This document shows, in pieces, positions 35,056 through 37,779 of a DNA stretch of 43,633 nucleotides. Made by a program: the position numbers and the translations under genes. The notes below the pieces were generated by a model. That model did not search any database. It had not been told where the DNA came from and was given only the letters and a program-made list of their open reading frames with translations. Positions within the stretch are counted from its first letter, which is position 1; each line of letters opens with the position of its first letter. Source of the DNA: Acidobacteriota bacterium (GTDB taxonomy: Bacteria > Acidobacteriota > Vicinamibacteria > Fen-336); contig JAJDNV010000023.1 in assembly GCA_022340545.1 (NCBI GenBank), forward strand, positions 1 through 43,633. The letters are read 5' to 3'.

Positions 35056-35835
35056 ATGTCGGAGCCACCCCCCCGCCCCGGTCTGGTGCGACGCGTCGCC
35101 GCCGGCGCGTGGCACGTGCCCGCCGGGTTCGCCATCCTCGTGAGGACCCCGCGGCTCTGGCCCCTCGCCGCGGTTCCCGTGGTCCTCGCGGCCCTCCTCG
35201 TGTTCCTCGGGGCGGTGCTCGGCATCTTCCTCATCCCCCGGGTCGAGGCGCAGGTCGGCCCGACCCCGGGGGCGTATCCGGTCTGGATCGAGCTTCCGGC
35301 GAGCCTTCTCCTCTGGACGGCAATGATCGGGACCGGCGTCTTCCTGGGCCTCGGCGTCGCCCTGCTGCTGGCGACACCGGCTCTCGAGCAGCTCTCGCGA
35401 CAGGTCGAGGTCCGTGTCCGGGGCGCCCCGGTCGACTCCAGTCGCAGTCTCGTCTGGGAGCTCGCCCAGTCGCTCCGGGGAGGTTTCTACTTCCTGCTGG
35501 CCGCGCCCGGCGTCTTCCTGCTCGGGTTGATCCCGGTGATCGGGCCGCTCTTCTCCGTACTCTGGGGAGGACGGGCAGTCGCCCTTCAGATGACCGACCC
35601 CGCGCTGACCCGCCGGGGCCTCTCGCTGCGCGATCGCTGGCGCTGGCACCGGGAGTGGCTTCCGGAGAGCCAGGGGTTCGGCCTCGCCGGGATGATCGGC
35701 CTCCTCGTCCCCTTCGCCAACCTGCTGCTCGGTCCCGCCCTCGTCGCGGGCGGGACCCTGATGGTCCTGTCCCTGGAGTCGCTGGGCTCACCGGAGGCCC
35801 CCGAGACTCCGGCGCCCCGGGACACTACAAGCTGA
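35056..35835 (+). CDS. EI24/CysZ-like membrane protein
   Basis: A 259-residue membrane protein. The opening RRVAAGAWHVPAGFAILVRTPRLWPLAAVPVVLAALLV is the typical first part of EI24-domain proteins (a short re-entrant helix, then the first long helix). A long second hydrophobic part (PASLLLWTAMIGTGVFLGLGVALLLATPALEQLSRQVE) is followed by a paired helical region (GGFYFLLAAPGVFLLGLIPVIGPLFSVLW) and RDRWRWHREWLPESQGFGLAGMIGLLVPFANLLLGPALVAGGTLM. E. coli CysZ, the best known member, takes up sulfate; many EI24 proteins have no known function. No cys genes are nearby, so I do not use that symbol. Its end overlaps the convergent PDZ gene by 11 bp. Confidence 0.8.
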   Translation: MSEPPPRPGLVRRVAAGAWHVPAGFAILVRTPRLWPLAAVPVVLAALLVFLGAVLGIFLIPRVEAQVGPTPGAYPVWIELPASLLLWTAMIGTGVFLGLGVALLLATPALEQLSRQVEVRVRGAPVDSSRSLVWELAQSLRGGFYFLLAAPGVFLLGLIPVIGPLFSVLWGGRAVALQMTDPALTRRGLSLRDRWRWHREWLPESQGFGLAGMIGLLVPFANLLLGPALVAGGTLMVLSLESLGSPEAPETPAPRDTTS

Positions 35836-36781
35836 CCCCGGCTCCGCGCCGGCGGATCATCGTCGGCTTCTCTAGCTCGGGCAGGGTGACCTCGACGTCC
35901 AGCGCCTTCCCGTCCCTCTGCAGCTTCATCGTCTTCGCGCTTCCGCCCTCGGCCTCCCGAACCTGCTTGCGGAGCTGAGCCCCGTCACGGATTGCCGTCC
36001 CGTCGAACTCGAGAACGACGTCACCGGCCTTGATCCCGGCCTTCGACGCCGGGGTGTCCGGCTCGACCGCGGTCACGAGGACGCCCTCGTCGGAGGCCAG
36101 GCCGAAGTACTCGGCGAGCTGGTCCCCGAGGTCGATGTAGCGGATCCCCAGCCGCGGCCGCCAGGGGCCCAGGCTCATCGTGAAGTCGTGACCATCGTCG
36201 CCGTGCCACCGAAAGACGCGGGGGCCCGCCCCGGGCGGCAGCCCCGGCACCACCTCGAAGTCGAAGTCCTCGATGTCGAGGTCCTCGATCTCGGGAACGA
36301 CCACCTGGCCCGGCCCGACGGAGAGCCCATGAGGCCAATTCCCGGCGTGGGGCAGGTGATGACGGCGGGTGAGCGTCGCGGTGAGCGTCCGCGCCGCGCC
36401 GTCGCGCTTCACCTCGATGTCCACTTCGCGGCCGGCCGGCGTCTCGCGCACGAGCCGCGCCAGCTGCCGTGCACTCCGCACGTCCTCCCCGTCGAAGCGG
36501 ACGATGACGTCGCCGTCCTCGAGGCCCGCCTTCTCCGCCGCGCTGTCGGGCTGCACGGTCTGAACCTTTGCCCCTCGCACCGCGCCCTCGGGGTCTTCGA
36601 GGCCGACGCCCAGGTAGCCGCCGCTCCCAGCACCGCCGATCTCGATCCTCTCCGTGATGATCTTCCTGCTGCGCTCCTCGTCTTTGTCCTTCTCTTCGGC
36701 GCGGACACGGCCCGTGCCGGCCACGAGCACGGCCAGCAGGAAGCAGCAGACGCCCAGTACCAGAGTGGCCGAACGCTTCAT
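35825..36781 (-). CDS. Exported double-PDZ protein
   Basis: A 318-residue periplasmic protein with a signal peptide (residues 1-28, ending VRAEE) and two PDZ domains. PDZ1 (about 54-138) has GGYLGVGLEDPEG, AAEKAGLEDGDVIVRFDGEDV and the helix SARQLARLVRE. PDZ2 (about 210-305) has LAEYFGLASDEGVLVTAVEPDTPASKAGIKAGDVVLEFDGTAI and an equivalent helix. The carboxylate loop of PDZ1 is YLGV. There is no serine-protease domain as in DegP/HtrA, so it would be an adaptor or sensor that binds C-termini. A Gly/His/Pro linker (RRHHLPHAGNWPHG) separates the domains. AAGGAGG precedes the ATG. The gene is followed by the convergent EI24 gene with overlapping stops; the 126-bp repeats lie upstream. Confidence 0.85.
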   Translation of the reverse strand: MKRSATLVLGVCCFLLAVLVAGTGRVRAEEKDKDEERSRKIITERIEIGGAGSGGYLGVGLEDPEGAVRGAKVQTVQPDSAAEKAGLEDGDVIVRFDGEDVRSARQLARLVRETPAGREVDIEVKRDGAARTLTATLTRRHHLPHAGNWPHGLSVGPGQVVVPEIEDLDIEDFDFEVVPGLPPGAGPRVFRWHGDDGHDFTMSLGPWRPRLGIRYIDLGDQLAEYFGLASDEGVLVTAVEPDTPASKAGIKAGDVVLEFDGTAIRDGAQLRKQVREAEGGSAKTMKLQRDGKALDVEVTLPELEKPTMIRRRGAGVSL

Positions 36782-36845
36782 GAGACCTCCTTGCAGCTTG
36801 CCGTCGACACCCCTTGGACGCAGCCTGCCCTCAGAAGGTCGGACT

Positions 36846-37133
36846 ACCAGGCCCGGGCTCGCCCCCGTGTCCTCTCCCTGGGGACACGGGGGCGTAAAGG
36901 GCCTATCCCAAGCCTTTCCCTCCCCCTACGTGGGGAGGGTTAGGGAAGGGGGTCGATGAATGACTGTGCACACCCGGCCTAGGCTCGCCCGCGTGTCCCT
37001 TCCCTGGGGACACGCGGGCGTACAGGCCCTATCTCAAGCATTTCCCTCCCCCTACGTGGGGAGGGATAGGGTGGGGGGTCGATGAATGATTGTGCACACC
37101 AGGCCCAGGCTCGCCCCCGTGTCCCCTCCCTGG
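36846..37133. repeat. 126-bp tandem repeats with two hairpins each (2.3 copies)
   Basis: Units start at 36846, 36972 and 37098 (exact 126-bp spacing); the third stops at about 37133, 8 bp before the next gene's stop codon. Each full unit has hairpin one (unit 1 arms 36860-36872 and 36882-36894, 13 bp perfect; unit 2 arms 36986-36998 and 37008-37020) and hairpin two (CCCTCCCC/GGGGAGGG around CTACGT, 36918-36939 and 37044-37065). In hairpin one the pair C36865-G36889 of unit 1 is G36991-C37015 in unit 2, a compensatory change that keeps the stem. This fills the 359-bp gap between the PDZ gene and the Lon-N-like gene. The hairpin-two sequence recalls intergenic palindromes of other GC-rich bacteria. 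Confidence 0.85.
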
Positions 37134-37140
37134 TGCGACG

Positions 37141-37779
37141 TCAGTGAACTGCGGTGCTGCCGCCGGCCGGCCCCTCGAGGATGTGGAACTCCAGGATCTC
37201 GATGAGCCGCGTGTAGCGGGTCTCCAGCGTGTGGCAGTCGAGGAGCGACTGCTTCTCTACCGGGCGCAGGCCGAGGCTCTGGCTGAGTGCGTTGACGAGC
37301 AGCTCGTGTGGCAGCTCGCCCTGCAGCACCAGGCTCTTCGGGCCGTCCGCCGCCCGCGCGATGGTGGCCAGGACCCTCTTGCGCAGGCCGTCGAGGGCCT
37401 CGGCGTCTCCCGCTCCGTCGGTCAGGGTCTCGACCGTAGCGAGCCGGTACGGCTCCCCCTCGTGCTCCTCCAGCACCCGAAAGCGCGACTGCGCCCGGAG
37501 GACGATGTTGTAGCGACCGTCCTCGAGACGCTCGTGCTGGGAGATGACCCCGGAGCACCCGATCGAGTAGATGGGAGGCCGCCCTTCGTAGCCCTCCTCC
37601 CAGCCCGGCTTCAGCAGGGTCATCCCGATGGTGCGCTGCGTCCCGAGCACGTCCTCCACCATCTTGCGGTAGCGCGGCTCGAAGATGTGGAGGGGCAGGG
37701 GCATCCCCGGGAAGAGGACCGTGTCGGGGAGGGGAAAGAGAGGAAGAAGCAGGGACGGGCCATCAGGCATCTTGGCCAT
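37141..37779 (-). CDS. Lon N-terminal (LAN) domain protein
   Basis: A 212-residue cytoplasmic protein consisting only of the Lon substrate-binding (N-terminal) domain: LLPLFPLPDTVLFPGMPLPLHIFEPRYRKMVEDVLG is the signature, followed by GCSGVISQHERLEDGRYNIVLRAQSRFRVLE and a helical C-terminus. The AAA and protease parts of Lon are absent, and the length is normal for stand-alone LAN proteins. Such proteins are widespread, and their function is not settled; a chaperone or adaptor role has been suggested. GAGGAG precedes the ATG. It lies 39 bp downstream of erpA on the same strand and is probably co-transcribed. The repeats end just beyond its stop. Confidence 0.88.
   Translation of the reverse strand: MAKMPDGPSLLLPLFPLPDTVLFPGMPLPLHIFEPRYRKMVEDVLGTQRTIGMTLLKPGWEEGYEGRPPIYSIGCSGVISQHERLEDGRYNIVLRAQSRFRVLEEHEGEPYRLATVETLTDGAGDAEALDGLRKRVLATIARAADGPKSLVLQGELPHELLVNALSQSLGLRPVEKQSLLDCHTLETRYTRLIEILEFHILEGPAGGSTAVH

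Follow-up and report, generated by a model that had tools for sequence, protein, structure and literature searches.

The direct repeats found in the window (the whole stretch of 43,633 nucleotides analysed here) belong to a real, structured, genome-wide family that is apparently undescribed in the open-access literature text. The reading we favour, with a probability of roughly two in three, is that its units are non-autonomous mobile repeats, a species-expanded family of short interspersed palindromes resembling REPs, REPINs and ERICs in behaviour and belonging to none of these groups. Most short palindromic repeats that bear a family name belong to Proteobacteria, with a few other phyla making up the rest, and RAYTs or terminal inverted repeats often accompany them. 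The structured repeat described here, present in about a hundred copies in an Acidobacterium, has neither.

The array and the plan of its units

The array occupies a 359-bp spacer leading from a PDZ-domain gene, whose start lies 64 bp away, to a LON-substrate-binding-domain gene (Table 1). Two complete units, 88% identical, follow each other directly at a spacing of exactly 126 bp (TRF score 471), and a third is cut in its hairpin-1 loop, 7 bp from the stop codon of the latter gene. An earlier sequence-only reading had described three units of this period with two hairpins in each, a C-G pair in the long stem replaced by G-C in the second unit, and a third unit broken off in its first hairpin beside a stop codon, and the analysis bore it out on each of these points. 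Each unit follows one plan, in which an outer stem (AGGCC/GGCCT) encloses the long hairpin 1, followed by hairpin 2 and a G-rich tail; below, hairpin 1 is termed module A, and hairpin 2 together with the tail module B. Arms of hairpin 1 are 100% complementary (36860-36872 with 36882-36894 in unit 1, 36986-36999 with 37007-37020 in unit 2), and the folding z-scores of the complete units are low (-5.35 for unit 1 and -4.00 for unit 2, with 0 shuffles as good). The reverse strand of unit 1 gives z = -4.30, so that energies lie far under those of shuffles on both strands.

Table 1. Positions of the repeat units, their structural elements and the adjacent genes in the window
Feature	Position	Strand	Remark
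Repeat unit 1	36846..36971	+	model core 36846-36964; 134.3 bits
Outer stem AGGCCC/GGGCCT around hairpin 1, unit 1	36849..36904	+	GGCC and GGCCT almost invariant in family
Hairpin 1, unit 1	36860..36894	+	swapped pair C36865-G36889
Hairpin 2, unit 1: CCCTCCCC CTACGT GGGGAGGG	36918..36939	+	near-invariant in family
G-rich tail ending TCGATGA-ATGA, unit 1	36932..36964	+	quadruplex motif 36932-36952
Repeat unit 2	36972..37097	+	model core 36972-37090; 143.8 bits, rank 2 in genome
Hairpin 1, unit 2	36986..37020	+	pair G36991-C37015
Hairpin 2, unit 2: CCCTCCCC CTACGT GGGGAGGG	37044..37065	+	same as unit 1
G-rich tail ending TCGATGA-ATGA, unit 2	37058..37090	+	quadruplex motif 37058-37078
Truncated unit 3, first 36 bp, ending in hairpin-1 loop	37098..37133	+	
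Neighbour gene, two PDZ domains	35825..36781	-	
Neighbour gene, LON substrate-binding domain	37141..37779	-	

The plan is not followed by all copies. About 18 of them hold an additional module C of ~85 nt within the 5' arm of hairpin 2, and at several loci units stand head to tail in twos or threes, which together make the family a mosaic. In this long variant (18 copies, including L089, L090, L099, L109 and L111) the extra hairpin module, CTCGGGGTCGACGCTCGTCTCGCAAGCTCGACTTCGCGTCCCCCGAG, is highly uniform, and perhaps younger than module A because it is the more uniform of the two. A function as a quadruplex was considered and set aside: the motif recurs in 55 of 63 copies, yet is frequent in the background of the GC-rich window too (15 in 43 kb).

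Covariation and the folding strand

Evidence for a maintained fold comes from hairpin 1. In 30 copies aligned with MAFFT, independently of the covariance model, 8 of its 14 pairs show double changes, amounting to 19 cells against 4.4 in shuffles and 1-3 in slid controls; the copies are related, so that neither these counts nor the wobble counts given below represent independent events. With 91 copies aligned to the model, an alignment that leans to structure, double changes appear in 12 of the 14 pairs, and the whole structure contains 116 such cells compared with 22 in shuffles. Two units differing by one swap would have been weak ground for claiming covariation, and it is the genome-wide set that justifies the claim. 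The earlier proposal that the folded form is maintained thus stands for hairpin 1, but not for hairpin 2, which offers no evidence of covariation, being identical in both window units and near-invariant across copies (99% conserved per column, with 98% for GGGGGGTC behind it). Since hairpin 2 and the tail are conserved and hairpin 1 covaries, module B is constrained as sequence and module A as structure.

The pattern of wobble pairs points to the folding strand. Among the one-sided pairs that the 66 best copies show in stem 1, G-T(U) outnumbers A-C by 55 to 8, an excess coming mostly from the two most variable columns (19:6 without them), and at unpaired sites C-to-T (55/591) and G-to-A (56/457) changes are about equally frequent. 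A G-T pair on the + strand corresponds to A-C on its complement, so that folding probably takes place in the + strand, either as RNA or as single-stranded DNA. Template-switch correction of imperfect palindromes could also produce paired changes without selection, yet it would show no preference for G-T.

Distribution in the genome and in relatives

In the 5.04-Mb genome from which the window comes (a draft of 406 contigs, 94% complete), blastn located the repeat at 45 places. A covariance model built from 30 copies gave about 132 matches at E<=0.001, 70 of them above 84 bits, a match count that is approximate, 150 of 4182 first-look candidates having been scored. The sequence-only reading had suggested such a search of the genome and its relatives, naming a lack of other copies and of a transcript as the sign of a chance local event; other copies abound. 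Pairwise identity among them averages 82%. For unit 2 the figure is 92% with a copy on contig C200, 91-92% with several others and 87% with unit 1; because this unit is nearer to dispersed copies than to its own neighbour, the array did not arise by a simple recent duplication. Pairs from different loci seldom exceed 95% identity, which leaves no clear sign of recent movement. Viral contigs compared with the family pattern gave no match.

After merging, 66 strong loci remained above 84 bits, and not one of the 66 shares over 25 bp with a called gene at a coding density of 0.86 (genes were called by a codon-usage caller trained on the genome's own contigs). Among the 57 strong loci that could be classified, 25 are convergent, 28 co-directional and four divergent, as against 8%, 65% and 27% of the intergenic bases of the window, a background drawn from one 43-kb contig. 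Copies are thus concentrated between convergent genes and near stop codons: of 45 cases with a converging gene, 20 have the right tip of the element no more than 12 nt from that gene's stop, and in five the host stop codon is provided by the last 12 nt of the element (on the opposite strand, ATC ATT CAA TGA or a similar sequence). Where the following gene is on the same strand, the terminal ATGA supplies its called start codon in about 7 of 16 cases, and most copies in this genome are not at start codons. An orientation bias was also considered, the 3' neighbour converging in 43 of 57 cases, and was discarded as mostly due to the symmetric convergent class, the co-directional ratio of 18:10 not being significant. 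A short palindrome, GGCCTGAA...TTCAGGCC (about 32 bp with a variable loop), adjoins several copies (L087:1755, L098:1777, L115:1968, L119:1755, L138:1761 and 3056), and is possibly terminator-like or a second repeat family.

The family has 0 copies in the congener G001, a 100% complete genome. At the site orthologous to 36824-37153 of the window (L188, G001:C172 33057-33168), this genome has a 112-bp spacer occupied by an unrelated palindrome, GGGGTCAGGTCTTG...CAAGACCTGACCCC, and ends of this type flank both of its Y1 transposase genes. A GGGGGTCAGGTC remnant also occurs in G001 at the site that corresponds to C379:28119. Further loci of the window's genome are also element-free in G001, with spacers that align poorly. 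The dispersed copies, the element-free orthologous sites and the absence from the congener support one of the two identities put forward in the sequence-only reading, that of a mobile or expanding intergenic element.

Module B has a wider distribution, matching at E<=1e-6 in 4 of 193 genomes of the class, all of one family. In G003 (a Vicinamibacteria MAG), G010 (Acidobacteria AA29) and G009, which represent three related genera, it occurs alone and in 2-4 copies, often ending exactly on a start codon, which in G010 and G003 belongs to unrelated genes. From their first residues, we take the genes starting at module B to be kdpA-, dapF-, cinA- and nuoD-like genes and a glycosyltransferase gene. 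At four junctions (L037, L040, L187 and L033, in two of the three related genera) module B has ATGA on both sides and a G-rich run, similar to a Shine-Dalgarno sequence, that precedes the ATG by 7 nt; each junction is presumed to be a former stop/start overlap. Between nuoC and nuoD module B is present in G003, and the site is empty in G001, G006, G007 and G009, the empty overlap reading GAATGAGC in G001 and CAATGGCTAG in G009. In the window's own genome, [AT]TGA stands at the left end of 5 of 38 solitary copies against a background expectation of about 2, so that target duplication cannot be claimed there; when a target-site duplication was sought across the copies of this genome, the only 4-mers in common were those of the terminal repeats of the element itself.

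The ATGA stop/start junctions in relatives are the family's most unusual and least secure trait. They raise the tentative, and on balance doubtful, idea of a site-selective repeat that would insert at the ATGA stop/start overlaps of operons, leaving ATGA on both sides and furnished at its two ends with a stop codon and with a run resembling a ribosome-binding site plus a start codon, so that the operon would be split without damage to its genes, by means of a non-Y1 enzyme recognising single-stranded hairpins. If the ATGA junctions hold, they offer a testable target rule and a way for a repeat to enter tight operons without breaking them.

Mobility and competing explanations

Under the favoured reading of a non-autonomous mobile repeat, copies would be mobilised in trans by a putative transposase-like enzyme, which may recognise the + strand hairpins as single-stranded DNA and may either cut next to ATGA or duplicate 4 bp. 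Of the two modules, B would be the older and serve as the recognition end, and A may have been added to it in the lineage of this species before multiplication. Copies at gene 3' ends would be retained because their insertion does no harm there, helped perhaps by in-frame TGA stops at the element ends and, on the other strand, by the G-rich ribosome-binding-like run with its ATG.

The foremost alternative, itself unlikely, is a functional RNA: bidirectional 3'-end structures kept for termination or for protection of mRNA 3' ends. The strong enrichment in convergent spacers, the closeness to stop codons, the very stable folds and the tolerance of G-U in stem 1 are all consistent with it. However, intrinsic terminators (GC-rich hairpin plus T run) number 0 in 36700-37250, the array having no U-tract or terminator-like site, Rfam covariance models found no match in the window at the gathering threshold, and in the congener the spacer of this gene pair is free of the element. 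Folding strand and transcribed strand do not coincide preferentially (among co-directional copies, 10 the same and 18 opposite), which would favour a single-stranded DNA intermediate over a function at mRNA 3' ends. A structured RNA family, the second identity offered by the sequence-only reading, is accordingly not established, since a fold specific to one strand is equally compatible with RNA and with single-stranded DNA, and the neighbours read the element in either direction.

A mobile repeat invites comparison with families already described. REPINs of Pseudomonas fluorescens are REP doublets that form hairpins, dispersed between genes as non-autonomous elements, many per genome, with common compensatory changes (PMC3116915). 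The present family is likewise dispersed, extragenic, of high copy number and endowed with a hairpin kept by compensatory changes, but it consists of two different stem-loops head to tail, with unrelated sequences and no inverted REP pair, in a genome (94% complete) that has no RAYT. REPs tagged with GTAG or CGTC lie beside the 3' ends of ORFs, in spacers of the convergent and unidirectional kinds, and tolerate G-T pairs in their stems, the CGTC class having no associated transposase either (PMC3733652). All three of the former traits recur here, yet units measure 119-126 bp against 20-40 bp and carry no tag at the stem foot; in the 30-copy consensus, CTAC/GTAG occurs only inside the hairpin-2 loop and CGTC is absent.

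It is from this resemblance that a rather improbable alternative draws, namely a REP/REPIN family moved by a RAYT (Y1 transposase) that has since been lost or lies in the unassembled part of the genome. REPs and REPINs are known to show compensatory stem changes, G-T pairs, intergenic sites and a clustering of copies no more than 20 bp from 3' ends (PMC3116915, PMC3733652), and the ATGA at both junctions in relatives recalls the tetranucleotide targets of elements of the IS200/IS605 type. The consensus just described speaks against this, as does the distribution of the enzyme: Y1_Tnp (PF01797) was found in none of the four carriers (G000, which is the window's genome, G003, G009 and G010), although controls were detected, and the Y1-bearing members of the taxonomic family, G001 and G005, have 0 copies of the repeat. 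Targets of IS200/IS605-type elements are fixed tetranucleotides. The palindrome that borders the Y1 genes of G001 is a different one, and the RAYT-associated palindromes of this congener, GGGGTCAGGTC...GACCTGACCCC, fill the same intergenic slot as our repeat, from which they differ in their unrelated sequence and in sharing their ends with the flanks of the Y1 genes. No gene family recurs beside copies in the window's genome as an autonomous partner would, and terminal inverted repeats are absent, the ends ACAGGTGCGG... and ...TCATTGAATGA not being complementary.

Other known systems match in part. ERIC and RU-1 (127 bp) are intergenic elements with stable stem-loops that may be fused to gene ends, giving stop codons (PMC2759123). 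Our repeat resembles them in length, intergenic placement, stable stem-loops and the stop codons given to genes, but it lacks terminal inverted repeats, and no duplication of TA was seen. Its sequence is presumably unrelated to theirs. As in bacterial interspersed mosaic elements (BIMEs), modules (A, B and the inserted C) are combined in a mosaic with head-to-tail arrays, although these are not made of REPs in alternating orientation. Integron attC sites, defined by R'/R'' core sites and an integron integrase, were considered as well; the copies here are solitary and lie between ordinary genes instead of forming cassette arrays.

Very improbable is a cis-regulatory 5' element, in which the G-run of module B before an ATG would govern how the following gene is translated, through alternation among hairpin 2, pairing with GGCCUAUCUC and a quadruplex. 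The near-invariant tail, the start codons of unrelated genes met in G010 and G003 and the roughly seven such copies in the window's genome would suit it, but the genes differ, the single site compared is not conserved between genomes, most copies lie away from start codons, and quadruplex motifs are common in the window. A single event of local tandem duplication combined with chance changes, for which the exact 126-bp period might speak, can be dismissed in view of the genome-wide matches and the closeness of unit 2 to other loci.

Two observations concern sequences at the borders of the family. The exact core CCCTCCCCNTACGTGGGGAGGG also occurs in Tabrizicola, in an Ardenticatenia MAG and in an alphaproteobacterial MAG, where the core CCCTCCCC(C/G)TACGTGGGGAGGG recurs (L043, L044, L047, L049); the flanks of these matches differ, and they were treated as separate repeats and not as members, which may have arisen by convergence or by exchange. 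At L178 (G002:C141), a hairpin similar to module B adjoins a CCCTATCCCTCTCCCCGTGAGCGGGGAGAGGGGAG palindrome, which suggests a wider class of C-run/G-run palindromes in this family.
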